From the IMG/VR virus record IMGVR_UViG_3300027793_000264, positions 1-25,660 of that record: a DNA stretch of 25,660 nt, one strand, 5' to 3'. Of the stretch, positions 21 through 18,526 are shown piece after piece. Every line of letters starts with the position of its first letter. The first letter of the stretch is position 1. Source of the stretch: a virus. A program made the translations under genes and the position numbers. The notes under the pieces were generated by a model. It saw nothing but the letters and a program-made list of their open reading frames with translations, made no database searches and was not told where the DNA came from.

Positions 21-859
21 TTGCGCACGCACTCCAGCAGGCGTTGCATGGCGGTCTCTCGCTCGTTGATGTCGGTGAGCGAATCGCCGGCGTCCATGGT
101 CAGTGTGCCGGTCTCGCCGGTGGACTCGACGCGAACCTGCATGGCGACCTTGCGGCCGCGCAATTCTGCCAGCGGAATGTCGGTTGCGGCGCGTTCTCTT
201 GAGCGACTCAGCTTCACGCCCTTGATCTTCGCGTCGGCCGGCAGACTGCCTCTGCGCTCGTCGGCTGCAAGGCCGTCGATGAATTCCTTCATCGGCGCGT
301 CGACCTCAGCGTCACCGGTCAGCGTGTACTGGACCGGGGGTAGCGCGGCCTTCTGCTCAGCGAAGCCCCGTTCCACCAGCGACAGATCTTCAGCGCCGGG
401 GCGGAAGTTCTGCCATGCGTTTTGCAGCCGCGTTTCTGCGGTCAGCGCCCACCGAGCAAGCGGGTCCGGCGTGCTGGCCATGTGGTTGCGCCAGGCTGCG
501 GCCTCGCCAGCTGGACCGAACTGCGTCGCCGACAGGTTGTGGGCAAAGTAGTCGTGGACCGCCCGCAGCACGTCGTTGTACAGCATCGGGTAGCCGTTGA
601 CGTCTTTCAGGCCGGAGTCCTGGAGCAGGGGGTGGCCGGAGAAGTCGCTACCTGGAGGGCCAAACGTGGCCGGCGATGTCTTGTAGACGCGGAACCGGTT
701 GTTGACGCTGACGTCGCGTCGCATTGCGGTGCTGTTCGCGTAAGGCTCTCCGTCCATCGCCTTGATCGCGGCAAGGGGTCCCGTGCGCCAACTCTTTGAC
801 GGCGAGCCGTAGTTGCGCTGGAGATACTGCACGGCCCGCCGAGCCTGGTCGGCCTCATG
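17..859 (-). CDS. C-terminal part of the giant polyvalent virion protein, displaced by a -1 frame change
   Basis: This frame encodes about 280 residues and continues the protein encoded at 607-7125. The upstream frame runs ...KLVDDG and this one picks up as HEADQARRAVQYL. It has no credible start or Shine-Dalgarno of its own; the first in-frame start-like codon is a GTG (Val) at 832. A conserved block around bases 480-590 reads YNDVLRAVHDYFAH, then QFGPAGEAAAW and ALTAETRLQNAWQNF. I recall this His/Asp/Arg-rich block from the ends of large phage and mobile-element proteins but cannot assign an activity. The remainder is charged and helical-looking, ending CVRK. It is most likely the C-terminus of one 2,369-residue protein whose frame is broken by a one-base deletion, real or artefactual. 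A separately translated or frameshift-made product is less likely. Confidence 0.75.
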   Translation of the reverse strand, partial: HEADQARRAVQYLQRNYGSPSKSWRTGPLAAIKAMDGEPYANSTAMRRDVSVNNRFRVYKTSPATFGPPGSDFSGHPLLQDSGLKDVNGYPMLYNDVLRAVHDYFAHNLSATQFGPAGEAAAWRNHMASTPDPLARWALTAETRLQNAWQNFRPGAEDLSLVERGFAEQKAALPPVQYTLTGDAEVDAPMKEFIDGLAADERRGSLPADAKIKGVKLSRSRERAATDIPLAELRGRKVAMQVRVESTGETGTLTMDAGDSLTDINERETAMQRLLECVRK

Positions 860-3800
860 CCGTCGTCGACCAGCTTGCCTACCAAGGTTTGCGACTTCGG
901 ACCCCAGTACGGGTAGGCCTTGCCGTCGACCTCGACCGAGGCCATGACCTCGACCTTGATCGGCAAAACCTGGAACTGCTCCTTGAGCGCAGTGGTCAGT
1001 GCGCTGTAGGCCTGCTGCACCACCGGCCGAGCAAGATCGTTGGTAGGCAGCGCCTCGAAGACTTGGGCGAGCTGCTTTTGCTCTTTGACTTGCGCCGCGG
1101 TCAGCGGCTTCTGCGCAAAGGTCTTGATCGGACCCTTGTTCAGGTACTCCGCGATCAGTCGCGGGGTTTCGGTGTCTGCGTCGGCCTTGGTACGAACGTC
1201 GCCACGGATTGCCGAGTACGGGATTCCTGCGCCATCTCCTTCGCCGTAGGCGTATAGGCGTTCAACTCGGTATTTAGGTCGGCCACCTCTTTCGCCAGCC
1301 AGCTCTTGTACTCGGGCGATCCGCGCCTTAAAGGCTTTGTAGCTGTCGACATCGGTGGCTTCCTCAGTGGGCCGGACCCAGTACGCGGTCAACGTCTTCG
1401 GGGTGACGGTGAACCCCAGGAGACCGGTGTCAGCAATGATAGCGGAAATATCATCCGCCGAGAGTTCGCGCTGCAGATCGATCTCGTAGACCGGCGTGGC
1501 GTAGGAGCCGTCGCCGAAGTCATGGCCCACCGGCTGCGCGGTGGGGGCGCGGACGTGGATCTGCTGCTGGTTGTAGCTGTCCGCAAACGTGGCCAGAGCG
1601 GCCAGCACGGGCTTGCTCTCGGACTCGTCGAACGCAACCTGGATCGAGATCGACGGCTCCCGGTCCGACATGTACACACCAGTGGACGGGGCAACGACAA
1701 GGCGAGCCTTGGTGCCGCCCAGCAAGAACCGCAGCGAGCTCTCCGCGACCTGCTGCAGCAGTTGGCCGGCCTCGGCCTCACCACTCATCGCCCGGGCGTA
1801 GAGCTCCTTGAGGCCGGGGATCGAGCTCGTGGCGGCAGACACGTTGACCGTGACCTTTTCGCGCAGCTCCTTCGCTTCTCTAAGACGAACACCGCCCTCG
1901 GGCACGAAGCTCTTGTCGTAGCTGGTGCCGCCGTCGGCGACGAACTGGCCAGGCCCGGAGCCCACCCAGTCGGGATCGATGATGCCGCCCTTGACCTTGT
2001 TGTAGCCTTCGGCGATCTTGACGATGGCGCGGCGGGCAGCGGCAAACGACAGCTTGCCGTCGCGGAACTGGCTCCAAACCTCCCGCACCTTGGGCTTGAT
2101 GGAGCTCTTGATGTTCTCGCCAAAGAGACCGCGCACCGCCTCCCAGGTAATGGACTGCATCTCGCGGGCGCTGACGCCGGCCAGGCGCGCCGCTTCCCGG
2201 TACGCATCGGCCACGATGCCGTAGGTCCCGCCAACCCCGAGGAGGGAGGAGCCGCCGGTGCCACCGAAGTTGTCGGTGACCTCCTTGTCTGTGCCGGCCA
2301 ACGCTTCAAAGTGCCCGGCGGCCACGGCGTGCGTGTCGATCGTGACGTGGGAGATCGGGCTGTTGGGCGCGGCGATGTTGTTGTAGAAAGAACGGATCTT
2401 GTGCTCTTCCCCGAGCTGCTCGCTGATGTTCTTGCGGCTGCCGTCACGGAAGATGCTGACCGACTTCACGATCGGGTCGTAGGTCGACCACATCATCGTG
2501 GACGGCGTGCCGTCAGCGTTTCGCACCAAGTCGCCGAACCCACCCTCCGGGGTGACGATGCGGTACTGGCGCGAGTGGTACGCCTCGTCGTAGGACCGGA
2601 TGAAGACCGCGGCGTCTTCGGGGCTCATGTCGTCGAGGACGGTGCCGGCCTTGGCAACCTGCTCCGCCCTGTCGTAGGCCTTCTGCCGCTTCTCGCGCTC
2701 CTTGCGGTCGCGCGTCTCTTCGACGTAGCTCTTGGCGTAGGCGAGCATGTTGTCGTCCCACGCCTTCTGCCCCTGGCCCGTCAGGATGTCGAGGGCGCGC
2801 TCGGCCATGGACACGTTCTGGAACCAGTCCTTCTGCGGGGACATTGCCGCCATGATGCCGGCGACCTGTTCCATCTTCACGCCGTACGCCTTGCCCATGT
2901 CGGTGGCGATGCGGTTCGCGCCGTCGTACCAGAGCTTGCTGCGCTCGCGGATGTTCCTGGGCACCTTGCCAAACAGGTACATCAGGTTGCTGACGATGCT
3001 CTGCTTGTAGACCTCAATGACTTTGTCGCGGGGCGTGTCACGGGGGACGAAGCCGTAGCCCAAGATCGCGTTGGTGATGCTTTCAGCCAGCGGCGTCTTG
3101 CCCGACTTGACCGGCAACGCCATGGCTTCGCGCACCGCCGCCTCATCAATCGACAACATGTCGTTGATGGGGTCGTACAGGCGGTTCACGGCCTGCGGGT
3201 TCTGCGTGCTGATCTCAGTTTCTTCAGGCACCGCCGGGCGCACAGGGCTCGCAGTAATCGGCTCTGCCGTTTCGCCAGCCACACTTGCGCTCGCGGGCAC
3301 GCGAGAGCCTGCGGTCAAGTCGACCTGGCTCTCCTGACGCATGAGCTCGGCGTCCAGGCGCATGGCCGGCTCGCGGCGCTGCTGCGCGTACTGCGTCACT
3401 GCGGTGCGCACCGCGGCCTTCACCGCGGTCAGGTCCTTGACGTACTGGTCAGCGTTGAACGTCTGGCCGCGCACTACGCGCATGAAGGCGTTGACCGCCT
3501 TGTTCACCGACGCGGCCAGTCGGGTGATGATGCCGCGCGCCTGCTCCGGGTTCTTGGCAGCGATGTCCTCGAACACGCCGTTCCAGAAGTCGGCCTCCTG
3601 GAACCGGTTGCCCACCAGATCGCTGGAGAGCTCCTCCAGGTTCGCCCCCTGGCCGTAGTCCTGCTCAAACCCGGCCATGCCCTCGGGCTTCAGGTTGGCC
3701 TTGACCACCGCCTCCAGCGCGCTGTAGGCCTCGGGGCTGTCGCGCTTGATCAGGTGCGTGAGCTCGTGGCCGAACACGGCCAGCGGCGAGACGCTGGACT

Positions 3801-6800
3801 TTGAGCTGAGGTAGATCGTGGAGTCGTCGTCGTCGCGCACGAAGCCGTCCACCTGCGCGGTGTCGGACTCGAACACGACCACCTTCTTGCCGAAGATCCG
3901 AGCCACCTGCTGGATCATCTTTCCCGGCTCGCCGAGCGTGGAGCTGTCCACTACGCGAAGCTGGTGGTCGGTGCCCTGGTCGTTGACCGTCAGCGTGCTG
4001 CCCGGCACCGCCGCCCGGGCGGTGGACATCTTCACCCCAGAGGTGATGATGCGCCCCGGCGCAGGCTGGTCTAGGGGCTTGGTGGCTTGAGCCGCAGCGG
4101 CCTGCAGACGCGCGCTGACATCGTCAGCCGGCGGCTGGGCAGGGGCAGCTGCCCGCTCGGTCTGTTGGCGCGCCAACAGCTCAATCTGAGCGCCGCGGCG
4201 GGTGATCGCCGGCAGCCCCATGTCGTTGGCTGTCTGCTGCAGATCAGCGTCCGTGAGCGACGCGGCACGGCGGCCGCCGACCATCGTCGGCCTCGGCAGG
4301 TTATTGCCGGCACGGATCGCCTCGTTGCGCCCGCGGAACGCCCCGCGTGGCGTCAGGTCCTCGCTCTGGGCGATCTCGATGCCGCTTGCCGTGACCTGCG
4401 GTGCCGGAGCCTGCTGGCCGGCGCGAGCGATGCGCGCCGTGGCGCCCTCCACCGTCAGGTCTTGCTGCGTGAGCGGGCGGTTGCCGTACAGCTCCACCGC
4501 CTCGCGCAGTGCGGGGTTCTCGACTCTGGCGCTGGGCGTTTCCACCTGCACGCCGGTCGGCGTGGCGGGAGCCGGCGCTGCTGCGGCCGCGCCCTCGATG
4601 CGCTCTTGCGAGCTTGGCGGCAGACCACGCTGGATGTCCAGCGCGCTTTGCACCTCAGCCGGCGAGATGCGCCCGGCCTCGTAGTCCTGCACGAACGCCC
4701 GGGCTGCGGGCGTGTTGGTCTCGCGCATCTGCTGCACGAACGTGCCGACGATGTCGGCCTGCGGCGCAGCTTGCTCCGCCGGCTCGGCGCGCTTGCGGCC
4801 CTGCAGCTCGGGCGTGTAGGCAAACCCGGTGGAGACATCGTCCGGCGTGCGGTTGCGCTCCAACGGGATGCGCTGCTGAACGTCTTGGTCGCTGACCCGG
4901 GAGAAGATGTTCTGTCCCGCAGCTTGCGGGTTTCGCTGCACGAGCTCGCCGCGCTGTTGCGCGGTCTGTTGCGCAATGTCGGTCAGCGCATTGTCTGTGC
5001 GAGCACCGTAGCCCAGACCCGCCTCGGAGCCGACCGGGATGCCGGTGGCTGCGGTCAGCAGTTGGTCCTGAGAAGCCGGGCGGCCAAGGTTCGGATCAAT
5101 GCTGTTGTACGGCTGGCCCAGGTTGGCCGAGCGCAGCAGCTCTGCCTCGTAGGGTGAGGCCACTCCGCCGCGGGCTTCGATGTTGGCCATCGCCCGGCTG
5201 ATCATCTGCTGGCGCGGCGCGTCCTCTGCGCGGCGCTGCACTTCCTTGCCGGCCAGGGCTGCAGACTCGATCTGCACCTGGGCTTGCGCAGGCGCCACAG
5301 GGGCGCGCAGGTCCGGCATCTCCAGGTCGGCGGCGCTGACCGGCAGCTCGCGCCGGCCGATCGCAAAGCGCTCCTTCTGCGCCGGGTGCGGGACGATCTC
5401 CAGGCTCAGCGGGGTGCCGGTCTGCTCCTGCAGCACCGTCAGCCGCTGCTGCGCCTGGCGCGCGTCCATCGGCGTGAGGTCGGCGTAGCGGGCGGCCGGG
5501 CCCGGTGCCGGAGTGGGCAGCGAGACCTTGGCCTGCTCAAGCGCCTGCTGGCGCTCGAACTCCGTGCCGGCCTGCGCAGCTTGGCCCATCAGCTCCATGT
5601 TGCGCTGGGCAGCGGGCTGCGGCAGCGGCGGCAGAGTCGGCAACGCAGGACGCTCGGCAGTCGGCGCGACGTCCAAGCCGGCGGCTTGATCGAGCTGGCG
5701 CTGGATGTCGAGCTGACGGCCGAGCAGGCCCGGGCTCTCCGCGGCGGCCAGCCGCTCGTCCATGGTGGGCAGCGGCGGCAGGGTCGGAGCCACCGGCACC
5801 GAGGCCGCGCTGACCGCTGCATTGATCGCCTCGTCGGCGGTGCGGGCCTGGCCGAGATCGCGCAGGTAGGAGTCCACCGCTGAGCTGAGCTCGGTGTTGG
5901 CGGTGCCGAGGTCCTGCAGCGCGGAGGGCGGTGCGGGCGGCGACGCCTGGTCGAGCGGACGGGAGCGCGACATCTCCTGAGTCAGGATGCCCGGCTGGTC
6001 AAGCCGCTTGGCGACGTACAGCTCAGGCAGGCTCGTGGCCAAGCCGGCCACAGACTCCAGCGCCGCATCGGTGAACGACGCCTCACCGGTAGCGGCCAGC
6101 TCACCGGTGTACTCGCCCAGTCCCTCGCCGAACGACTCCAAGCCCAGCGCGGTCGCACCGCGTCCCGTGCGTTTCGCAAGCGTGGTGCTGGTGTCGAAGG
6201 CGGCTTTCTGCGCGGACTGCACAGCCGACACCAGGTCAGGCTTGAGCAGACCTTGGCGGGCCATCGCCTCGACCGTCGCCTTCTCAACGGACTCCTGCAG
6301 CGCCTCGCGGCTCAGGCCCCGGCCGGCTTGCAGCGCATCGCGCTGCGCCTGCTGGATAGCTTGCGCGGCTTTCTGCGCGTCGATGCCAGCGTCTGACAGC
6401 GTACGCACGGTGGCTTGCTCGACGGCGCGATTCGCTGCGCCAAGCACGTACTTGCTTGCGCCCAGGGTGACCGCGTCAACACCGGTGATGACTGCGCCCT
6501 TGACCGCGCCCTCGCGCATCACGCGCTCGCGCTCTGCGGGTGTGAACTGCTTGTCTTGACCAGCCTCAATCGCCTTGCCGCCGGTCTCCAGCAGCGTGTT
6601 CGCGCCGAACAGACCGGTGATGAAGCCGACCGTTCCACCGACTGCGGTGCCCACAGGGCCGAACGCAGAGCCGATCAGCGCGCCGCCCTTGGCCCCGGCG
6701 AAGCCTGTGCCCAGTGCCACAGCGGCGTTGGGCGCCTGCTCAGCCACCAGCTGTGCCCCGCCGCGCGGGTTGTCAATAATGGCGCCGGCGACGTTCTTGA

Positions 6801-7125
6801 TGCCAGACCACAGCGAGTCGTCGTCCGCGACCTTGCGCGCTTGAACGTCTCGCTTGAGTTGGGTCAGGCCGGTGGCGCGAGAGTCCCGCTCAATCTCTTG
6901 CGTGCGCGCCGACTGCTCGACGACGTCTTCGCCAGCGCCCAGGTAGGTGCTGAGCGCAGCGCGTGCCGAGCGGTAGGTCTTCTGCGCGCCTTCGCTGACG
7001 GCCGACCCAAGTTCGCTGAAGAACCCGGCGGGTTTTCGATCAGGCGCATCAACTTCCCAGGAACGGGTCCACGGCTTGGCCTCCTCATCCTCAACCGCCC
7101 ACGCTCTTTCCCAGGGGTTCGCCAT
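607..7125 (-). CDS. Giant polyvalent internal virion (ejection) protein with metallopeptidase motif
   Basis: As read, this is 2,172 residues; with the frame correction near base 859 the product is about 2,369. It starts at an ATG at 7125, seven bases past the previous stop. The N-terminus has a duplicated PWxRxWxV motif (residues 3-10 and 17-24). Residues about 130-180 are Gly/Ala-rich and hydrophobic, a candidate membrane-inserting segment. Residues about 380-1050 are long Ala/Pro/Gln-rich linkers. H1120-E-L-T-H1124, followed by LEELSSDL with E1164/E1165, fits a gluzincin-type zinc peptidase. Residues about 1340-1710 form a helix-rich domain with MSPQKDWFQN and TIDTH motifs, known to me from large phage proteins but not functionally assigned. 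It is the last and largest gene of the ejection block, like T7 gp16, and probably enters the cell with the DNA. No transglycosylase or RNA polymerase motif was found. The last 83 residues (858-607) look out of frame. Confidence 0.8.
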   Translation of the reverse strand: MANPWERAWAVEDEEAKPWTRSWEVDAPDRKPAGFFSELGSAVSEGAQKTYRSARAALSTYLGAGEDVVEQSARTQEIERDSRATGLTQLKRDVQARKVADDDSLWSGIKNVAGAIIDNPRGGAQLVAEQAPNAAVALGTGFAGAKGGALIGSAFGPVGTAVGGTVGFITGLFGANTLLETGGKAIEAGQDKQFTPAERERVMREGAVKGAVITGVDAVTLGASKYVLGAANRAVEQATVRTLSDAGIDAQKAAQAIQQAQRDALQAGRGLSREALQESVEKATVEAMARQGLLKPDLVSAVQSAQKAAFDTSTTLAKRTGRGATALGLESFGEGLGEYTGELAATGEASFTDAALESVAGLATSLPELYVAKRLDQPGILTQEMSRSRPLDQASPPAPPSALQDLGTANTELSSAVDSYLRDLGQARTADEAINAAVSAASVPVAPTLPPLPTMDERLAAAESPGLLGRQLDIQRQLDQAAGLDVAPTAERPALPTLPPLPQPAAQRNMELMGQAAQAGTEFERQQALEQAKVSLPTPAPGPAARYADLTPMDARQAQQRLTVLQEQTGTPLSLEIVPHPAQKERFAIGRRELPVSAADLEMPDLRAPVAPAQAQVQIESAALAGKEVQRRAEDAPRQQMISRAMANIEARGGVASPYEAELLRSANLGQPYNSIDPNLGRPASQDQLLTAATGIPVGSEAGLGYGARTDNALTDIAQQTAQQRGELVQRNPQAAGQNIFSRVSDQDVQQRIPLERNRTPDDVSTGFAYTPELQGRKRAEPAEQAAPQADIVGTFVQQMRETNTPAARAFVQDYEAGRISPAEVQSALDIQRGLPPSSQERIEGAAAAAPAPATPTGVQVETPSARVENPALREAVELYGNRPLTQQDLTVEGATARIARAGQQAPAPQVTASGIEIAQSEDLTPRGAFRGRNEAIRAGNNLPRPTMVGGRRAASLTDADLQQTANDMGLPAITRRGAQIELLARQQTERAAAPAQPPADDVSARLQAAAAQATKPLDQPAPGRIITSGVKMSTARAAVPGSTLTVNDQGTDHQLRVVDSSTLGEPGKMIQQVARIFGKKVVVFESDTAQVDGFVRDDDDSTIYLSSKSSVSPLAVFGHELTHLIKRDSPEAYSALEAVVKANLKPEGMAGFEQDYGQGANLEELSSDLVGNRFQEADFWNGVFEDIAAKNPEQARGIITRLAASVNKAVNAFMRVVRGQTFNADQYVKDLTAVKAAVRTAVTQYAQQRREPAMRLDAELMRQESQVDLTAGSRVPASASVAGETAEPITASPVRPAVPEETEISTQNPQAVNRLYDPINDMLSIDEAAVREAMALPVKSGKTPLAESITNAILGYGFVPRDTPRDKVIEVYKQSIVSNLMYLFGKVPRNIRERSKLWYDGANRIATDMGKAYGVKMEQVAGIMAAMSPQKDWFQNVSMAERALDILTGQGQKAWDDNMLAYAKSYVEETRDRKEREKRQKAYDRAEQVAKAGTVLDDMSPEDAAVFIRSYDEAYHSRQYRIVTPEGGFGDLVRNADGTPSTMMWSTYDPIVKSVSIFRDGSRKNISEQLGEEHKIRSFYNNIAAPNSPISHVTIDTHAVAAGHFEALAGTDKEVTDNFGGTGGSSLLGVGGTYGIVADAYREAARLAGVSAREMQSITWEAVRGLFGENIKSSIKPKVREVWSQFRDGKLSFAAARRAIVKIAEGYNKVKGGIIDPDWVGSGPGQFVADGGTSYDKSFVPEGGVRLREAKELREKVTVNVSAATSSIPGLKELYARAMSGEAEAGQLLQQVAESSLRFLLGGTKARLVVAPSTGVYMSDREPSISIQVAFDESESKPVLAALATFADSYNQQQIHVRAPTAQPVGHDFGDGSYATPVYEIDLQRELSADDISAIIADTGLLGFTVTPKTLTAYWVRPTEEATDVDSYKAFKARIARVQELAGERGGRPKYRVERLYAYGEGDGAGIPYSAIRGDVRTKADADTETPRLIAEYLNKGPIKTFAQKPLTAAQVKEQKQLAQVFEALPTNDLARPVVQQAYSALTTALKEQFQVLPIKVEVMASVEVDGKAYPYWGPKSQTLVGKLVDDGMRPTRLGGPCSISSATTARRQRVGARDPLPRSRRWTESLTRTAPQCDATSASTTGSASTRHRRPRLALQVATSPATPCSRTPA
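854..862 (-). other. -1 frame change inside the giant gene
   Basis: On the minus strand the upstream frame reads GAC GAC GGC ATG AGG. The sensible continuation is CAT GAG GCC GAC CAG, which requires base 859 to be read twice or one C to be restored (GGC CAT GAG). The upstream frame stays open for another 83 codons but turns into an Arg/Ser/Thr/Pro-rich tail typical of an antisense or shifted GC-rich frame. No X-XXY-YYZ slippery heptamer is present, which argues against programmed -1 frameshifting and for an indel in the genome or the assembly. Confidence 0.8.
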
Positions 7126-7131
7126 GCTGTG

Positions 7132-8247
7132 TTACCTCGCAACCGAGCCGGCCGCAGAACGGCTGGCAGGAGTCCAACTTTTCGGGTCGTTGGGATTGCC
7201 ACCCATGAACCGGTAGCCCTCAACGACATCGCCCACCTTGAGCCGGCTAGGAGCGGGCCCCGCACCGCCGCGGTCGGAAGGCGGCACCTTCTTGTCGCCA
7301 GCGCCCGTCGACAGCCGGGCCGCTTCCTTGCGCAGCCGCTTCGCCTCTTCCGTGTTGCCCTCGTTGTCAGCCGCCTCGGCGAGCTTGATTAGGTTGGCAG
7401 CGTTGGCGGCCACGCCGGTGATGTCCACCTTGCCCTTGCCATCCGCCGTGGCCCGAGCGTCAGCGGACGCCTTGCCAGCCTGTGCACGGTTTTCGGTAAT
7501 GACTGACTGCCCCACCGCTGTCGCGCCGGACTCACCGCTGTAGCGGTTGCGGGTGGTGTTGCTGTCGCCCTCAAAGACGGCGTTGCCCTTCATGCCGCCG
7601 ACCGAGGCCGCGCCCCGGCCTGGGCCAACAGCGCCGCTCAGGATGCCCTTGCCGACATCAGTCTCGAACTCGTTCTGACGACCCTCGGTGACTTCCTTGT
7701 AGTTCTTGCCCAGCCGGTAGGACTCCTCGATGCGGGCGAGAGATTGCATCTTGGCGCGTATCTCAGGCTCGAACCCGGGCGGCAGCTCCTTGGCCTTTTC
7801 CTCGACCAGCTTGGCGGTCTTGCGCGAGACAGCGTCGCCGAACTCATCGTTGGGCCCGGCCATCGTGTCATCTTGATCGCGGCTGTAGCGCGTCACGTCG
7901 CGCTTGAACGGCTCCTTGTCGCCGGTTGAGGAGTATTGCCGCAGCGCACGCAGCTCAGGCACGGTCAGCCCGGCAGCGCGAGCCAGCATGGCCTCGTCTT
8001 CGCCACCCTCGCCGATGCTCTTGGCAGGCAGCCCGCCATCCGCACCACCGCCGCTGCTGCGCGCTGCAGCCGTCTGCTGGTCAGCCGTGCGGCGGTACAG
8101 CGCATCGCGCTCGGCCTGCCGCCTGGCGTCCTCTTCGCGCTCACGGCGGCGCTCTTCCTGCCGGTCCTCTTGCAGGTTCGACTGGAGCATGTAGTTGCCG
8201 ATCGTCGAACCGATGTTCGAGATCGCTTGTCCGATCAGCCCGGCCAT
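7132..8247 (-). CDS. Probable internal virion protein, 371 aa
   Basis: The ATG at 8247 directly follows the TAA of the upstream gene (TAAATG). The N-terminus MAGLIGQAISNIGSTIGNYM is amphipathic and glycine-rich. Residues about 25-50 are a highly charged Arg/Glu helix, and the rest is mostly soluble, charged and helix-prone. A short module near the C-terminus (KVGDVVEGYRFMGGNPNDPKSW) resembles a cap found in many phage structural proteins, where it often follows a linker. It lies between the 165-aa protein and the giant protein, the position held by internal core protein genes in T7-like phages. No catalytic motif is visible. The virion role is inferred from position and composition; a cytoplasmic assembly factor remains possible. 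Confidence 0.65.
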   Translation of the reverse strand: MAGLIGQAISNIGSTIGNYMLQSNLQEDRQEERRREREEDARRQAERDALYRRTADQQTAAARSSGGGADGGLPAKSIGEGGEDEAMLARAAGLTVPELRALRQYSSTGDKEPFKRDVTRYSRDQDDTMAGPNDEFGDAVSRKTAKLVEEKAKELPPGFEPEIRAKMQSLARIEESYRLGKNYKEVTEGRQNEFETDVGKGILSGAVGPGRGAASVGGMKGNAVFEGDSNTTRNRYSGESGATAVGQSVITENRAQAGKASADARATADGKGKVDITGVAANAANLIKLAEAADNEGNTEEAKRLRKEAARLSTGAGDKKVPPSDRGGAGPAPSRLKVGDVVEGYRFMGGNPNDPKSWTPASRSAAGSVAR

Positions 8248-8745
8248 TTAAGCCTCCTGCGCCATGCGGTTGAACTCTTCGGGATCGACCTGGTCCATCG
8301 CCTGCTGCAGCTGCGAGGTGTCCATCCCCTGCTCGCCGAGGTAGCGCAGGATCATCTGCTTCAACGCCAGGGCGATGTCCGAGGGCTTGTACTGGATGCC
8401 CGCTGCGCCGCCTATGTCAGCGACCTCTTCGAGGATCTTGGTCGCCAACAGCGCGAAGAGCTCGTCAGGCACGCTGCCCTCGGTGCGCTCGTCCACAACC
8501 GACGTGATCTCGTAGGCGGTGTTGGCCAGGCCATCCACCGGGTCTGTGGCGGTGCGCAGCCCTTCAGCCACACCTTCCGCACCGCCGTTCTCGTACAGCG
8601 CCTGCATCGCAAACTTCAGCGCGGTGACGTACTGCGGATTGCTGTCAGCGTCCTCACCACCCTCGTCGTCCATCGGGGGCATCTCACCTTGCGGCGGCAT
8701 CGCCTCCTGCCCAGGAGCCATCTGCTCTTTGATCAGTCCTGCCAT
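8248..8745 (-). CDS. Conserved acidic protein of the ejection block, 165 aa
   Basis: The start is the ATG at 8745, chosen because AAAGGAATCATC precedes it with good spacing. In-frame codons further upstream overlap the preceding gene and translate as Arg-rich shadow sequence. The start MAGLIKEQM is followed by a Met/Pro/Gln-rich segment, an acidic stretch (DDEGGEDAD), and then a helical domain (about residues 45-150) with conserved-looking LAxKILEEV and ALKQMILRYLGEQG segments. The stop TAA abuts the next ATG. It has no signal peptide or membrane segment and I cannot name a family. Between two membrane-active-looking proteins it could be a chaperone or an internal core component. That it is a real gene is well supported; its function is unknown. 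Confidence 0.7.
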   Translation of the reverse strand: MAGLIKEQMAPGQEAMPPQGEMPPMDDEGGEDADSNPQYVTALKFAMQALYENGGAEGVAEGLRTATDPVDGLANTAYEITSVVDERTEGSVPDELFALLATKILEEVADIGGAAGIQYKPSDIALALKQMILRYLGEQGMDTSQLQQAMDQVDPEEFNRMAQEA

Positions 8746-8756
8746 GATGATTCCTT

Positions 8757-9437
8757 TCAGGCGTAGGTGAAGCCGCCGATGTTCTGGTTGTAGTTGGCGC
8801 GCTGCTCTTCCGTGGCGTCTTCCTGCTCCTTCTTGGCGTACATCGCGCCGCCGAGCTGCAGGCCGCCAGAGACCGCTGCGGCCTTGCCGTAGGGGCCGAG
8901 ACCGTTCCACATGCCGCTGATGATGCCGGAGCCGCCGGCGCCGGCCGCCCCAGGAATCGCGGTTTGCGCCGCGGCCTGCGTTGCGGACAGTCCTTTTGCG
9001 CCAAAGCCGGCAGTTTGCTCAGCCAGCAAGGCTGCCTGCGATCCTGCCCCAGTTGCGGCGCCGCTCCCCAGCGTGCCGGCGTAAGCCCCTGGCGTTATAG
9101 CCGCGGCGTTGGCTGCCTGGGCCCCGGCCGCGCTGGCGCCAGAGAAGCCAGAGCTGAGAGAGCCCGTGACGGACCCGCCGCCTCCAGTCAGCGCTGTCCA
9201 GGCGCCGCTTATCCCCGATGCCGCACTGGATAACCCTGCACTAGCGCCTGTCAGGAAACTGCCTCCTGCGGTTGCACTGCTGAGTCCGCCCATCAGCGCA
9301 GCACCACCAAAGTAGACCAGTGCAGCACCCACCAAGATCTTGCCCAGCTTGGACTTGGCGACCTTCTTGACGACGTTGCCAACGCCCTTGACGACCTTAC
9401 CGATCGCGCGGCCTACGCCCTTGACGACTTTTGACAC
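8757..9437 (-). CDS. Cationic, Gly/Ala-rich internal virion protein (T7 gp14-like position), 226 aa
   Basis: The start is GTG at 9437 with a strong AAAGGAG eight bases upstream; that Shine-Dalgarno overlaps the TAA of the GNAT gene. Residues 1-33 form a Lys/Val/Gly amphipathic segment with repeated KVVKGVG, then a hydrophobic stretch (ILVGAALVYFGGAALMG, about residues 34-50). The long Gly/Ala/Ser-rich middle is followed by a short charged C-terminus (KKEQEDATEEQRANYNQ). This composition is typical of phage ejection proteins that insert into the host envelope. Position after a GNAT-like gene and before two further virion-type genes matches T7 gp14. The virion and membrane role is inferred; the coding call is firm. 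Confidence 0.75.
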   Translation of the reverse strand: MSKVVKGVGRAIGKVVKGVGNVVKKVAKSKLGKILVGAALVYFGGAALMGGLSSATAGGSFLTGASAGLSSAASGISGAWTALTGGGGSVTGSLSSGFSGASAAGAQAANAAAITPGAYAGTLGSGAATGAGSQAALLAEQTAGFGAKGLSATQAAAQTAIPGAAGAGGSGIISGMWNGLGPYGKAAAVSGGLQLGGAMYAKKEQEDATEEQRANYNQNIGGFTYA

Positions 9438-9448
9438 TTGGAGCTCCT

Positions 9449-9895
9449 TTACGTTCTTACGTAGCTCATGTTGATGCTCTTGCGCTCAAACCCGAGGCGG
9501 CGCAGGAACCTGATCAGCCGGATGTCGGTGCTGGGTTCCAGCTCCAGCACCGCTACCTTGATGCCCGAGCGGGACTTCACCCACCGAGCGAACTCGCGCA
9601 GCAACGCTGCGCCCGCGCCGGGCACCCGCGCGTAGTACAGCATCACGCTGCACTGCAGGCCCCGATACCAAAACGACTGCTGCGCGCACGCAGCCACCGC
9701 ACCCACCACGTTGCCAGACCCGTCCTCTGCGACCCAGAGGAAGTGCGCCGGGTTGAGCAGCGTCTTGCCTGTCTCCAGCATGCCGTCGCGGTCGACCTTG
9801 ACCGGCAACGGATCGCGAGACACCGACTCGCAGGCGAGGTCCACGATCGCCGGCAAGTCGCCGATCTTGGCTTTGCGGCAGACGATCTTGGTCAT
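9449..9895 (-). CDS. GNAT-fold acetyltransferase-like protein in the virion block, 148 aa
   Basis: The ATG at 9895 overlaps the TGA of the 887-aa gene (ATGA). The sequence follows the GNAT layout: beta1/alpha1 (IVCRKAKIGDLPAIVDLA), a central strand pair (FLWVAEDGSGNVVGAVAA), and an acetyl-CoA loop R-x-x-G-x-G (RVPGAGAALLREFARW) starting near residue 92. It ends in a C-terminal strand-helix block (DIRLIRFLRRLGFERKS). The length is usual for a single GNAT domain. T7 gp13 (Pfam Phage_T7_Gp13/DUF2833), to my recollection, belongs to the acetyltransferase-like clan and is also encoded just before gp14-15-16, so this may be its counterpart rather than a host-type metabolic enzyme. Whether it is active, and on what substrate, cannot be read from sequence. 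Confidence 0.8.
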   Translation of the reverse strand: MTKIVCRKAKIGDLPAIVDLACESVSRDPLPVKVDRDGMLETGKTLLNPAHFLWVAEDGSGNVVGAVAACAQQSFWYRGLQCSVMLYYARVPGAGAALLREFARWVKSRSGIKVAVLELEPSTDIRLIRFLRRLGFERKSINMSYVRT

Positions 9896-12555
9896 GGGCC
9901 GCTTGATTCAACGTACGGATTGACGCCGTACATCGGGTCAAACGGGCTTCGACCCCACTGGTCTTGCACGGAAGCTCTTGCGTCCCCAATGACGCCGCCA
10001 CCACCCGTCGCCGGCGCTGGTGCAGGCGCTGGTGCAGGCGCAGGCGCAGGAGCTGGAGCGGGCGCGGCTGCATTACCACCCGGCGCGATCGGCGTGGACG
10101 TGCCGCCTGGTCCAGTAATTCCGGGCAGCGTCGTGTTGTAGAACGACGCGCCCCACTGCAGCGTGGCGTTGGCGTTGGCAATGACGTTGTCGATTGCCTG
10201 CTGCTTCGGGCTCTTCCCGGTACTGGAGTTCACCTCTGAGCTCAAGTTCGGATCAGCCAGGAGGGCGTTGATCGCAGAGCTGGTGTTGGCCGTGATGTTG
10301 GCCGCGAAAGTGCCCGAGACGCTGGACTGCGACAGCGTGTTCTGCAACCTGATCATGGCCTCTTGCTGCGTGCGGTCGAGCTGCGCTTGAGTGGCCTGGA
10401 AGCTCTGCTGCGCCTGCTGCAGGGTCTGCTGCTGCGTGCGATCCAGCCCGGCCTGCTCGCGTTGGAACGCTTGCTGATTAGTCTGCAGGTTGGACTGCTG
10501 CGTTCGATCCAGTCCAGACTCTGCGCGCTGGAACTCCTGACGCGCGGTCTCCAGAGCCTTCTGAGCCGTGATGTTCTTGTCGGCCAGCATGATCTGCTGA
10601 GCGCGATCAAGCTCTGCCTGGGAGCCTTGGAACGTCTGCTGCGCCTGCTGCAGCGCCGTCTGCTGAGTGCGATCCAGCGCAGACTCTCCGCGCTGGAACT
10701 CCTGACGCGCTTGCTCCAGGGCCTGCTGAGCCGTGATGTTCTTGTCGGCCAGCATGATCTGCTGAGCGCGATCAAGCTCTGCCTGAGAGCCTTGGAACGT
10801 CTGCTGCGCCTGCTGCAGCGCCGTCTGCTGAGTGCGATCCAGCGCAGACTCTCCGCTCTGGAACTCCTGACGCGCCTTCTCCAGGGCCTGCTGAGCCGTG
10901 ATGTTCTTGTCGGCCAGCATGATCTGCTGAGCGCGATCAAGCTCTGCCTGAGAGCCTTGGAACGTCTGCTGCGCCTGCTGCAGCGCGGTCTGCTGAGTGC
11001 GATCCAGCGCAGACTCTCCGCGCTGGAACTCTTGACGCGCGGTCTCCAGAGCCTTCTGGGCTGTGATGTTCTTGTCGGCCAGCATGATCTGCTGAGCGCG
11101 ATCAAGCTCTGCCTGAGAGCCCTGGAACGTCTGCTGTGCCTGCTGCAGCGCCGTCTGCTGAGTGCGATCCAGCGCAGACTCTCCGCGCTGGAATTCCTGT
11201 CGCGCTTGCTCCAGAGCCTTCTGAGCCGTGATGTTCTTGTCGGCCAGCATGATCTGCTGAGCGCGATCAAGCTCTGCCTGAGAGCCTTGGAACGTCTGCT
11301 GTGCCTGCTGCAGCGCCGTCTGCTGGGTGCGATCCAGTTGGGACTCTCCCTTCTGGAACTCCTGACGCGCCTTCTCCAGGGCCTGCTGAGCCGTGATGTT
11401 CTTGTCGGCCAGCATGATCTGCTGAGCGCGCTCAAGCTCTGCCTGAGAGCCTTGGAACGTCTGCTGTGCCGTCTGCAGCGCCGTCTGCTGAGCGCGGTCA
11501 AGCTCTGCCTGAGAGCCTTGGAACGTCTGCTGTGCCGTCTGCAGCGCCGTCTGCTGAGTGCGATCCAGCTCTGCCTGCGTGCCTTGGAACTCCTGACGCG
11601 CCCTCTCCAGAGCCTGTTGAGCCGTGATGTTCTTGTCGGCCAGCATGAGCTGTTGAGCGCGATCAAGCTCACCCTGAGAGGCTTGGAACGTCTGTTGTGC
11701 CTGTTGCAGCGCCGTCTGCTGAGTGCGATCCAGCGCAGACTCTCCGCGCTGAAACTCTTGACGCGCTTGCTCCAGGGCCCTCTGAGCTGTGATGTTCTTG
11801 TCGGCCAGCATGATCTGCTGAGCGCGCTCAAGCTCTGCCTGAGAACCTTGGAACGTCTGCTGTGCCTGCTGCAGCTGGAACTGCTGCTGGCGGTCCAGAT
11901 TGTTCTGAGTTGATTGGAACGCCTGCTGCTTCTCCTGCAGCGAGGTTTGCTGCGATCGGTCAAGAGCAGCCTGCGCAGCGCTGAAGTTCTGCCGCGCCGT
12001 TTCCAGGGCCTGCGTCGCCTCAATCGACTTGTCAGCCAAAGACGTCTGCAGTGCTCGGTCCAGCGCGGTTTGCGCAGCCGTGAAGTTCTGCGTCGCCCTC
12101 GTCTGCTCAGCCGTGAACGCCTGGCCGGCGGTGCGCTCTGAAGTCTGGAACTTGCGCTGAGCCTCGTTCTCACCACGGGTGAACTTCTGCTCGCCCAGCT
12201 GCAGGCCGAACTTGTTCTTCTCGCTCGCGCTGAACATCCCGGCTTCGTTGAAAGCCTTCTGGTTGGACAGCGCTTGGTTTGCGTAGGTCTGCGCGTCCTG
12301 CTGGGCCAGCGGCGTGACGCGGTCGATCATCGCGGCTACGCCAGCGCCCTGAGCCATGGAGCTGTTGACCAGTCCGCGCTGGTTCATGCCCTGCATGGCC
12401 TGCGTGCGGGCACGCTGCAGCAGTGGACTGTCCTTGGCCAGCAGGCCCTCTACCTGGCCCGCAGCGGTCTCGGTTCCGCGGTCAACGCTGCGCTCACGAG
12501 CGGCGAACGTGTTCGCGTTTCCGGTGTTGATGTCGAACGGGTTGGTTTCTGCCAT
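9892..12555 (-). CDS. Hendecad-repeat helical rod protein, probable virion/ejection protein, 887 aa
   Basis: The ATG at 12555 is preceded by GAGG seven bases upstream. Residues 1-126 form a non-repetitive head (NPFDINTGNANTF, LLAKDSPLLQRAR, QGMNQRGLVNSSMAQGAG), which I recall from other podophage virion proteins. Residues 127-731 are 55 consecutive 11-residue units with no insertion or deletion; within them, residues 226-687 form eight 55-residue repeats plus one 22-residue part-repeat. Hydrophobic residues alternate L3/A6/F10 with L6/A9 in successive units, giving an amphipathic hendecad helix, Gln-rich and poor in Cys/Trp/Pro. Residues 732-825 are a globular-looking tail, followed by an (Ala-Pro)n linker and a short terminus (WGRSPFDPMYGVNPY). 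It sits between lysis and ejection genes. An elongated virion or ejection role is inferred; an appendage is the alternative. Confidence 0.8.
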   Translation of the reverse strand: MAETNPFDINTGNANTFAARERSVDRGTETAAGQVEGLLAKDSPLLQRARTQAMQGMNQRGLVNSSMAQGAGVAAMIDRVTPLAQQDAQTYANQALSNQKAFNEAGMFSASEKNKFGLQLGEQKFTRGENEAQRKFQTSERTAGQAFTAEQTRATQNFTAAQTALDRALQTSLADKSIEATQALETARQNFSAAQAALDRSQQTSLQEKQQAFQSTQNNLDRQQQFQLQQAQQTFQGSQAELERAQQIMLADKNITAQRALEQARQEFQRGESALDRTQQTALQQAQQTFQASQGELDRAQQLMLADKNITAQQALERARQEFQGTQAELDRTQQTALQTAQQTFQGSQAELDRAQQTALQTAQQTFQGSQAELERAQQIMLADKNITAQQALEKARQEFQKGESQLDRTQQTALQQAQQTFQGSQAELDRAQQIMLADKNITAQKALEQARQEFQRGESALDRTQQTALQQAQQTFQGSQAELDRAQQIMLADKNITAQKALETARQEFQRGESALDRTQQTALQQAQQTFQGSQAELDRAQQIMLADKNITAQQALEKARQEFQSGESALDRTQQTALQQAQQTFQGSQAELDRAQQIMLADKNITAQQALEQARQEFQRGESALDRTQQTALQQAQQTFQGSQAELDRAQQIMLADKNITAQKALETARQEFQRAESGLDRTQQSNLQTNQQAFQREQAGLDRTQQQTLQQAQQSFQATQAQLDRTQQEAMIRLQNTLSQSSVSGTFAANITANTSSAINALLADPNLSSEVNSSTGKSPKQQAIDNVIANANATLQWGASFYNTTLPGITGPGGTSTPIAPGGNAAAPAPAPAPAPAPAPAPAPATGGGGVIGDARASVQDQWGRSPFDPMYGVNPYVESSGP
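10009..10071 (-). repeat. (Ala-Pro)n simple repeat inside the hendecad protein
   Basis: About ten consecutive Ala-Pro dipeptides (residues about 829-849) are encoded by GCx-CCx codons; on the plus strand this shows as repeated ggcgct/ggtgca/ggcgca. Such linkers are stiff and extended. It separates the globular tail from the last 38 residues and is a likely site of length variation between strains. Confidence 0.85.
10495..11880 (-). repeat. Nested 165-bp tandem repeats (8 copies plus 66 bp), each five 33-bp sub-units
   Basis: The plus-strand anchor gatgttcttgtcggccagca (11626: last bases differ downstream only) begins at 10570, 10735, 10900, 11065, 11230, 11395, 11626 and 11791, with slight variation in some copies. 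Spacing is exactly 165 bases, except one interval of 231 (165+66) where a 22-residue pair is inserted. Every copy keeps the frame. Several neighbouring copies look nearly identical over their whole length, so recent expansion or gene conversion is likely and assembly collapse is a risk. Confidence 0.95.
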
Positions 12556-16186: not shown

Positions 16187-18526
16187 TTACACCTGGTTTG
16201 TGCCGATCATGTGGTAGTTGGTGCCGTCGTACCAGAAGTTGATGACGGCTTTCTTGTTGTTCGCCCCGGCCCAAGTGGCGCCATACTGGATCACCGTGCC
16301 CGGCCAGTTGATCGTCTGCGCCGTGCTGGTGCCGTCGCTGTTGATGATGAGCTGCAGGTGGCACGGCCCGGGCGGCGCGGTGAAGGTGTAGGTGATCGTG
16401 CCCGTAGGCTCGGTCTGCAGTTGGTTCTGGGCCGTCGTCCAGTCCACCGTGATGCTGCCGCTCGTCGTGGCGATGGTGGTCTGGCTGTTGAACGTCGCGT
16501 TCTTGATGCCGGTCAGGTTGCTGTTGCCCAGCGCCGGGTTGGTCAGCGTCTTGTTCGTCAGCGTGTCCGTCGTAGCTCGACCCACCAGCGTGTCGGTGCT
16601 CGTCGGCAGAGTCAGCGTGCCGGTGTTGCTGATCGAGCTGATGACCGGTGCCGTCAGCGTCTTGTTGGTCAGCGTCTGCGTTGCAGCGGCAAGCACGACC
16701 ACGCCGTCTGCGTCAGGCAGCGTGACACTGCGTGACGCCGACAAGGTCGTCGGCGCGATCGTGACGCGGTACGAGCTCGCCCCGCCGGCTCGGCCGTTGA
16801 CAACCACGCCGTCTTGCGAGGCGTTGGTTGACGCAAGAAACGTCTGCCCGCTGACGTTGCCAAACACGTTGGCACCGGTGAACGAGTTCGCCTCTTCGCG
16901 AGTGGCTACCGTGAGCGAGGTTGCCCCCGTTCCAAAAGACAGAGCGCCCGAACCGTAGCCAAGCGCGCCAGAAGTGTTGGAAGTGGTCGCAGACAAGACC
17001 GGCGTTGTCAGCGTCTTGTTGGTCAGCGTCTGGGTATCGGTAGTGCCGACGATCGCGCCGGTGGGCGCTGTAAGCGACGTCCCCCATGCCGACCCGGTAG
17101 ACACCGCAACGCCCGCGCTGGGGTACACCATCCCCGCCGTCGACGCGATGGTGATCGACCCCGCGCCGTTGGTGATGGAGATGCCACTGCCCGCGGTCAG
17201 CGTCGACTTGGCCAGGGTGTTGCCGGTGCTGTTGCCGATGAGCAGCTGGCCATCGGTGTACGACGTCTGACCCGTGCCACCGTTGGCCACCGCCAAGGTT
17301 CCGGCCAGGGTGATGGTGCCAGCCGTCGTGACAGGGCCGCCAGAAGTGGTCAGGCCCGTCGTGCCGCCCGAAACGGCCACGCTGGTGACGGTGCCTGTGC
17401 CAGCGGCCACGATGTATTCGACGTCCGTGGCGCCGGCATTGACGGCCAGCACCTTGCCGGCGTTGCCGGTGAATGAGGGCAGCAGGTTCGTGCGCGCGCC
17501 CGAGGCGCTGGTGGCTCCCGTGCCCCCGTTGGTCACGGCCACCGTGCCGGTGACGTTGGCCGCGTTGCCGCTGATGTTGCCCGAGACCTTGCTGCCGGCC
17601 AGGCTTGTGATCCACGAAGGATCAGCGTAGGACCCGCTCGTGTAGACGCCGTTGGTGACCGTGCTGGCGTTGCCGGTGAGCGCGCCCACGAAGCTCGTGG
17701 ACGTCACGCTGGTCAGCCCAGCCAGCGTCGTCGCAGTGCCGCCCAGGCTCACCGAGGTGCTGCCGATTGTCAGCGACGAGTTCGTCAGGCTGGCGTTGGC
17801 GATGTTGCTCAGGGTGTTGCTCGAACCGCTGATGGTCTTGTTCGTCAGCGTGTCCGTCGTGGCCCGGCCAACCAGCGTGTCCGTGCTGGTGGGCAGCGTC
17901 AGCGTGCCGGTATTGCTGATCGAGCTGATTACCGGGCTGGTCAGCGTCAAGCCCGCCACCGTGGTGGCCGTGCTGCCCAGGCTGACCGACGTCGAGCCGA
18001 TGGTGACGGACGAGTTGGTCAGGCTCGCATTGGCGATGTTGCTGAGCGTGTTGCTGGATCCGCTGATCGTCTTGTTGGTCAGCGTGTCGGTGGTTGCGCG
18101 ACCGACCAACGTGTCCGTACTGGTGGGCAGCGTCAGCGTACCGGTGTTGCTGATGGTGCTGATGACCGGCGCCGTCAACGTCTTGTTGGTCAGCGTCTGC
18201 GTGCCGGTGGTCGTAACCACGTTCGCCCCGCCAACCGTGGCGCTGGTCGCAGCCAATGACGTGAACGTGCCTGCGGCAGGCGCCGCGCCGCCGATTACCG
18301 TGCTGTCGACAGTCGAGCTCGTGACGGCCAACGATTGCAGGGCCGAGCTGGCCACCAGCGCCGTGCCAGTTCCATTGACAACCGCGACCTTGTTGGCATT
18401 GCCAGACAGAGTCGGCAGCAGGTCAAAGCCGTCGGTGATGGACTGCAGTTCCGCGCGCAACGCAGCCGACGAACCCGGCGAGTTCGGGGTCGGATAGGTT
18501 CCGTGGTTGTAATACGAGTTCGACAT
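16187..18526 (-). CDS. Tail fibre protein with TQTLTNKTL repeats, 779 aa
   Basis: The start ATG overlaps the previous stop (TGATG). The N-terminus (YYNHGTYPTPNSPGSSAALR, ITDGFDLLPTLSGNANKV) is a recognised phage fibre N-terminal module, probably binding the tail. The shaft carries TQTLTNKTL motifs (first at residue 109, others near the middle and C-terminal third) and a 78-residue tandem duplication at residues 120-275. The C-terminal domain (AQTINWPGTVIQYG, KAVINFWYDGTNYHMIGTN) is a common fibre tip. The composition is Ser/Thr/Gly/Val-rich with almost no Cys, as expected for trimeric beta-rich fibres. It follows the neck protein gene and precedes a second fibre gene; the two may form a branched or hetero-fibre. 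Host-receptor binding is the expected role. Confidence 0.85.
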   Translation of the reverse strand: MSNSYYNHGTYPTPNSPGSSAALRAELQSITDGFDLLPTLSGNANKVAVVNGTGTALVASSALQSLAVTSSTVDSTVIGGAAPAAGTFTSLAATSATVGGANVVTTTGTQTLTNKTLTAPVISTISNTGTLTLPTSTDTLVGRATTDTLTNKTISGSSNTLSNIANASLTNSSVTIGSTSVSLGSTATTVAGLTLTSPVISSISNTGTLTLPTSTDTLVGRATTDTLTNKTISGSSNTLSNIANASLTNSSLTIGSTSVSLGGTATTLAGLTSVTSTSFVGALTGNASTVTNGVYTSGSYADPSWITSLAGSKVSGNISGNAANVTGTVAVTNGGTGATSASGARTNLLPSFTGNAGKVLAVNAGATDVEYIVAAGTGTVTSVAVSGGTTGLTTSGGPVTTAGTITLAGTLAVANGGTGQTSYTDGQLLIGNSTGNTLAKSTLTAGSGISITNGAGSITIASTAGMVYPSAGVAVSTGSAWGTSLTAPTGAIVGTTDTQTLTNKTLTTPVLSATTSNTSGALGYGSGALSFGTGATSLTVATREEANSFTGANVFGNVSGQTFLASTNASQDGVVVNGRAGGASSYRVTIAPTTLSASRSVTLPDADGVVVLAAATQTLTNKTLTAPVISSISNTGTLTLPTSTDTLVGRATTDTLTNKTLTNPALGNSNLTGIKNATFNSQTTIATTSGSITVDWTTAQNQLQTEPTGTITYTFTAPPGPCHLQLIINSDGTSTAQTINWPGTVIQYGATWAGANNKKAVINFWYDGTNYHMIGTNQV
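17702..18169 (-). repeat. Two tandem 234-bp (78-codon) copies in the tail fibre shaft
   Basis: Residues 120-197 and 198-275 both run PVIS-ISNTGTLTLPTSTDTL through NASLTNSS, GSTSVSLG and TATT-AGLT with a few substitutions. A third partial copy (PVISSISNTGTLTLPTSTDT, then TLTNKTL) occurs near base 16640-16530. Such direct repeats in fibre shafts allow length change by recombination. Confidence 0.9.

Follow-up and report, generated by a model that had tools for sequence, protein, structure and literature searches.

Helix-phase constraint on a variable-length hendecad protein from a podovirus lineage distantly related to N4, and its possible part in genome delivery

Introduction

The locus described here raises two questions: why a protein should hold one helical register over more than 600 residues, and what such a protein might do for a phage. 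It lies in the window, i.e. the whole analysed stretch of 25,660 nucleotides (positions 1 to 25,660 of IMG/VR virus record IMGVR_UViG_3300027793_000264), and encodes a protein of 887 amino acids (aa), the middle of which is an array of 11-residue units (hendecads). An identical copy of the gene is present in contig L001 (contigs used for comparison are cited by such L numbers). The analysis followed up a first-pass annotation of the window, and was extended to the relatives of the protein, its predicted fold and the gene neighbourhood.

Helical period and repeat structure of the array

The first-pass annotation had divided residues 127-731 into 55 consecutive units of 11 residues without a slip. 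This description is exact (residue 127 begins at position 12177 and residue 731 finishes at 10363, on the minus strand), and the profile widens the array to residues 117-733. Register was called by a phase model with explicit slips, which places these 617 residues in one unbroken block; no proline occurs within it. The units are of the types TALQQAQQTFQ, GSQAELDRAQQ, IMLADKNITAQ, KALEQARQEFQ and RGESALDRTQQ, and their composition is position-specific, with Gln at position 11 in 51 of the 55 units and Leu, Gln or Glu at position 3 in all 55. Across the family, 23,366 residues stand in register with 3 slips, the longest block being 879 residues (L016). Such an in-register array is far beyond chance.

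Since self-identity of the array is low at a lag of 11 residues (15%), higher at 22 (36%) and highest at 55 (68%), the repeat of the sequence itself is 22 and 55 residues, not 11. The helical period of 11 is nevertheless real. The hydrophobicity spectrum has its peak at 3.667 residues per turn (power 44.5), whereas the power is 0.2 at 3.5 and 0.1 at 3.6; hydrophobic residues occupy phases 2, 6 and 9, and the peak at 3.667 recurs in the long relatives. The hendecad helix proposed at first pass is thereby supported, in the form of an amphipathic (a-d-h) helix, and the 11-residue periodicity, the a/d/h stripe and 3.667 residues per turn are the features of a hendecad coiled coil or rod. The hydrophobic face takes up only 3 of the 11 positions, each about half occupied, while one phase is 91% Gln and another 84% Gln plus Arg/Lys (the arrays are 23% Gln overall).

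At the DNA level, a 165-bp unit is repeated in tandem within the array (6.1 copies, 93% match); the copies differ by 132 synonymous and 113 non-synonymous changes, synonymous changes being slightly ahead. Therefore, the register of the window array is partly inherited via recent duplication. An antisense open frame of 516 aa over the array is a mechanical mirror of the repeat, and nothing indicates a gene.

Family members and the change of length in steps of eleven

Close relatives come from IMG/VR and from prophage-like regions of halomonads and other bacteria. They share the N-terminal motif RGLVNSSMA (residues 60-68 in the window protein, invariant within the aligned N-terminal region) and, in most cases, the C-terminal domain (FAAN...), and their helical middle is very unequal in length. 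A phage search with the window protein alone returned one weak relative; the cultured members, reached via intermediate relatives, are Pseudoalteromonas phages vB_Pun_Y3 and Slicky01, Stenotrophomonas phage StenR_269, Escherichia coli phage PTXU04 (gp19) and Vibrio phages 1.232.O and 219E41.1. Homologues of the N-terminal domain occur in vB_Pun_Y3, StenR_269, PTXU04 gp19 and Vibrio 1.232.O gp23 (E 5e-18 to 3e-7), and those of the C-terminal domain in PTXU04 and the Vibrio phages as well.

Length was measured as the distance from the conserved N-terminal to the conserved C-terminal motif in 52 non-identical members. It takes 42 distinct values between 49 and 954 aa, and equals 8 modulo 11 in 40 of the 52; moduli 5-10 and 12-15 gave no signal in the same distances. 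The exceptions fall at residue 1 (five members, i.e. minus one heptad), residue 4 (two, plus one heptad), residue 5 (four halomonad-type prophages) and residue 3 (the L003 homologue, with a 68-residue insert). The rule was also checked on a held-out set, which came from a later search with another query and was scored with the C-domain model already in use; 17/17 members stand at residue 8, with 11 distinct lengths. Relatives are not independent of one another, a point that is met by counting on a tree of the conserved ends, where at least 45 length changes are accompanied by only 7 register changes (28-37 for other moduli). Furthermore, the distances in two isolate genomes, Vibrio 1.232.O and 219E41.1, are 94 and 39, exactly 55 aa apart. 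The expectation that unit counts change almost only by multiples of 11 is thus borne out, and the register law itself can be regarded as virtually certain.

The law could arise as a mere by-product of tandem duplication, in which exchange among 33-, 66- and 165-bp repeats adds multiples of 11 codons and length is under no selection. The recent 165-bp repeat of the window array accords with this, as do near relatives that are 55 residues apart (525 vs 580). Most relatives are, in addition, metagenome contigs, probably from short-read assemblies, in which near-identical repeats may have been miscounted; such errors would come in whole repeats, so that assembly might gain or lose them without a change of register. 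Recent duplication alone is however insufficient, since the rule persists in arrays devoid of near-identical DNA repeats: residue 8 is kept in 26 of the 34 members that lack any exact internal repeat of at least 20 nt, and in 17 of the 23 in which no 66-nt internal match reaches an identity of 0.80. The same proteins provide an internal control, as their N-terminal leaders and C-terminal tails, likewise variable in length, obey no mod-11 rule (chi-squared per degree of freedom 1.65 each, vs 29.6). Super-repeats also differ in length between clades (33, 55, 66, 77 and 88 aa). The by-product explanation is therefore already disfavoured and highly unlikely. On these grounds, the selection on length modulo 11 suggested at first pass is supported: helix phase is taken to be under selection, with duplication supplying the length steps.

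Some homologues depart from the common plan. In the L003 homologue (L003:5983-8877), the non-hendecad insert lies mid-array and the register is shifted beyond it. In PTXU04 gp19 (L108:13170-14303), the place of the hendecads is taken by helix-turn repeats of 29 residues (around NQASQFAQSLEEQIRSGKVSEQQAQQQI). The Slicky01 homologue (L107:9146-11008) has an unrelated Gln/Asn-rich array with autocorrelation at 11, 22, 33, 44 and 55, which suggests an independent expansion. L030 (L030:7803-10205) holds an array frame with no C domain and a similar second frame alongside, representing either a frameshift or an assembly fault.

Predicted shape: rod or hairpins

The first-pass annotation noted that one continuous helix of this length would be about 91 nm long. 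The hendecad helix stands, as described above, whereas the single rod is doubtful. In the AlphaFold2 model of the full protein, a monomer of low confidence (predicted local distance difference test, pLDDT, 60; predicted template modelling score, pTM, 0.27), the helices are mostly of about 50 residues and are broken at every LADKNIT, i.e. at each DK(S/N)I unit. Such units begin at residue 248 (Table 1) and at residues 303, 380, 435, 490, 545, 600 and 655; TSLADKSIEAT at residue 171 is a further one. The S/N position is Ser, Asn or Thr in 244 of 288 units, all good helix N-cap residues. A short member (327 aa; pLDDT 67.5, and 82-85 near the break) is likewise predicted as a hairpin, broken at ALTDKSV, and its model resembles hairpin coiled coils at ~1 Å across 65-71 residues. 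The C-terminal domain of the full-length model forms helices 748-766 and 783-805 (pLDDT ~81-86). Because the predicted breaks fall at units that carry N-cap residues, the array may zig-zag through a series of hairpins instead of forming a rod; the register is needed by either shape. Foldseek searches with both models returned nothing below E 0.001, and the good local matches were generic helical hairpins of 70 residues, which show only the AlphaFold2 hairpin at the DK(S/N)I turn.

Gene neighbourhood and phage lineage

Gene order in relatives is head-tail adaptor, nozzle, fibres, hendecad gene, GNAT, and the genes of the 226-aa, 220-aa, 371-aa and giant proteins (Table 1). In nearly every relative whose sequence covers this place, the GNAT gene comes next after the hendecad gene; one candidate for its substrate is the Lys conserved in the DK(S/N)I units. 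The 226-aa protein, with its transmembrane-like segment, is a candidate membrane-inserting ejection protein. P1 DarB is a packaged and injected protein, and the giant DarB-like protein of the cassette is probably injected too.

The hendecad gene holds a matching position in podophages Y3, StenR_269, PTXU04 and Vibrio 1.232.O, and in StenR_269 it lies between the nozzle homologue and a putative virion RNA polymerase. These four phages have the same kind of cassette as the window, but with the hendecad array short or missing. By capsid and nozzle, the window belongs to a podovirus lineage distantly related to N4, its capsid protein being akin to the N4-gp56 type. The podovirus context assumed at first pass is further supported by the result that neither the tape-measure families PF10145 and PF20155 nor the sheath family PF04984 matched in 12 relatives. 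PTXU04 and StenR_269 are podoviruses by electron microscopy (PMC6563267, PMC10747016). In PTXU04, plaque formation requires the giant gp25, and expression of cassette genes 20 and 22-25 is toxic or interferes with infection (PMC11879866).

Apart from the cassette itself, several observations concern the surrounding genome. The end of the giant gene is apparently frame-shifted near 607-830 (window frames 17-832 and 607-7125). In a 57.4-kb twin contig, the giant gene seems to cross the contig junction, giving ~3,100 aa with a DarB-like end (L101:11583-17324, L099:2-3565). This twin also carries an integrase gene (L099:3747-4787), so that a temperate lifestyle is possible; relatives are also found in contigs from bacterial genomes. 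The 779-aa tail-fibre gene of the window contains a 234-bp tandem duplication (17715-18169, ~1.9 copies, 83% match). The C-terminal tail of the hendecad protein ends alike in L003 and L047. Database matches that were set aside comprise, in phmmer and hidden Markov model searches against the PDB, hits to the Pro/Ala linker (DRS2, myosin light chain) and a weak TRIM25 coil, as well as Pfam DUF7854 and PHROG 17907, which look compositional, with no stretch significant alone.

Table 1. Coordinates of the hendecad gene, its parts and the downstream cassette in the window
Feature	Position	Strand	Basis or remark
Gene of the 887-aa hendecad protein	9892..12555	minus	ATG at 12555; open reading frame
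N-terminal conserved region, ~residues 13-116	12208..12519	minus	alignments with relatives; common to cultured phages
Hendecad array, single unbroken register, residues 117-733 (617 aa)	10357..12207	minus	phase model and spectrum
Recently amplified part of the array: 165-bp tandem repeat (55 aa, 5 hendecads)	10495..11503	minus	
DK(S/N)I unit, example IMLADKNITAQ, residues 248-258, predicted helix break	11782..11814	minus	
C-terminal conserved helical domain (FAANITANTSSAIN...LQWGASFYNT), ~residues 744-823	10087..10326	minus	
Pro/Ala linker and C-terminal tail, ends in DQWGRSPFDPMYGVNP	9892..10086	minus	sequence
GNAT acetyltransferase gene, directly downstream of the hendecad gene	9449..9895	minus	PF00583 above cut-off
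226-aa protein, transmembrane-like segment at residues 34-52; homologue in phage Y3	8757..9437	minus	synteny
220-aa conserved cassette protein; homologue in Y3	8248..8910	minus	synteny
371-aa cassette protein	7132..8247	minus	synteny
Giant polyvalent protein, DUF7178 in window	607..7125	minus	DarB-like C-terminal part in 57.4-kb twin contig

A possible role in genome delivery

From the register law and the synteny, both of which are observed, we infer that this podovirus lineage uses the protein as a helical part of its genome-delivery (ejection) apparatus and carries it in the virion, a reading held as moderately probable. It rests partly on the place of the gene between tail genes and the giant DarB-like protein, in a cassette beside a partner that is itself probably injected; in N4, the ejection genes gp52-gp51-gp50 occupy the corresponding place (PMC12633501). 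Further points in its favour are the podovirus nature of the relatives, the effects of expressing PTXU04 cassette genes, and the Gln and Gln/Arg faces of the array, the chemistry of which is lumen-like and comparable with that of the phiX174 H tube.

The proposed mechanism would join conserved N- and C-terminal domains by an amphipathic hendecad helix of adjustable length, the hydrophobic a/d/h stripe of which would pack helices into hairpins, bundles or an oligomeric tube. A gain or loss of 11 residues would change the helix by 1.65 nm and exactly three turns, such that the stripe, the DK(S/N)I turns and the end domains keep their faces, while indels of other sizes would rotate these faces and be purged. 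The protein would be packaged and exit with its downstream partners, the membrane-inserting 226-aa protein and the giant DarB-like protein. Together with the former it might help to form or line a delivery path, the Gln/Arg-rich polar face lining or shielding the route of DNA or protein through the envelope and the hendecad count setting its reach. Repeats would make the length fast to alter, perhaps matching different host envelopes. A more specific form of this proposal, a tube or rod between fixed end domains that is tuned in zero-rotation steps of 1.65 nm, hendecad copying fitting the reach of the conduit to the host envelope, is possible though rather doubtful.

Several points weigh against an ejection role. 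Profile comparison with N4 gp51 and gp52 gave no similarity, sequence and profile searches gave no convincing PDB, Pfam or PHROG family for the protein, the Pfam and PHROG matches being compositional or below threshold, and likeness to a known ejection protein was not found among gp51/gp52 profiles, PDB sequences or Foldseek matches. The AlphaFold2 models are weak and single-chain. Relatives with no array occur (190 aa), and the span varies ~20-fold among relatives, which is beyond the need of an envelope-spanning tunnel. Moreover, the homologue gp19 is not among the proteins named when four virion bands of PTXU04 were analysed by peptide fingerprinting (PMC6563267).

Alternatively, the protein might act inside the head as a core, a scaffold or a chaperone, its helices folded in a zig-zag bundle that keeps the giant protein or the DNA organised without forming a conduit. 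The nearby giant gene, the hairpin predictions and the Gln-rich faces are consistent with such a role; nevertheless, any such binding would be hypothetical, and the span (173-844 aa in 12 relatives) does not follow contig size (Spearman -0.04). This alternative is unlikely. The same correlation leaves the suggestion of a capsid or length ruler unsupported. A tail needle, whisker or external fibre, i.e. a multimeric coiled coil attached to the nozzle and lengthened by hendecads, would suit a gene that comes after the nozzle and fibre genes (right after the nozzle homologue in StenR_269), and P22-like phages carry a trimeric tail needle (PMC3741392). However, the gene is linked to the GNAT-226-220-371-giant series and not to the fibre genes, which vary; the protein ends in a Pro/Ala linker and short tail instead of a receptor-like C-terminal domain, and its predicted helix is broken at each DK(S/N)I unit. 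This alternative is quite unlikely. Lipid-binding 11/22-mer helices were also mentioned at first pass. Helices of this type, like those of apolipoproteins or synucleins, would coat a membrane during ejection and share the amphipathic periodicity of 11 and 22 residues, yet they are scarcely credible given the sparse hydrophobic face, a mean moment of 0.22 in 22-residue windows, near-neutral charge and an amphipathic discriminant above the threshold of 0.68 in only 1-2% of windows.

Comparison with known systems

For the preferred ejection role, the nearest working analogy is phiX174 H, with no membership claimed. H is a decameric DNA-translocating tube lined by Asn, Gln and Arg, with 3 hendecads plus heptads (PMC7354561), and resembles the window protein as a helical phage protein, of DNA delivery in its own case and probably in the present one, with 11-residue (11,3) repeats and a face of Gln/Asn/Arg type; the window array has a Gln (91%) face and a Gln/Arg face, either of which might point inward as in H. 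Unlike H, which belongs to a single-stranded DNA microvirus and has 3 hendecads followed by 11 heptads, the window array has ~55 hendecads (up to ~80 in relatives), variable length and predicted turns. H was not returned by the PDB sequence search, the only comparison made with it.

As regards the register, the nearest analogy is the tape-measure protein of phage TP901-1, a phage that gave no visible plaques once one and a half of these repeats had been deleted; the 11/18-residue repeats of tape-measure proteins (TP901-1, p2) are thought to ease length change (PMC5099701). They too are phage helical proteins with 11-residue repeats. The window array, by contrast, has no 18-residue units, no transmembrane-like segment was found in the 887-aa protein, and the cultured relatives are short-tailed; with the tape-measure and sheath families absent from 12 relatives, it is not classed as a tape measure. 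Its gene lies, like those of N4 gp51/gp52, DEV gp72/gp73 and T7 gp15, between the tail nozzle and a giant protein that is, or probably is, injected, although homology to the N4 pair is not detectable. To our knowledge, hendecad arrays of variable length have not been reported from any of these ejection proteins. N4 gp51 is a helical hairpin before ejection (PMC12633501).

Significance

Rules that relate length to the helical repeat by a modulus have usually been drawn from few proteins. Here, one undescribed family offers over 40 natural lengths between 49 and 954 residues, mostly obeying one modulus, with internal controls included. It thus serves as a natural experiment on the strictness of helix-phase selection and as a clean system for studying how short-tailed phages build delivery structures. 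Homologues in cultured phages, E. coli phage PTXU04 included, open the idea to bench testing. If true, the delivery proteins of podoviruses would include a phase-locked, length-adjustable molecular conduit.
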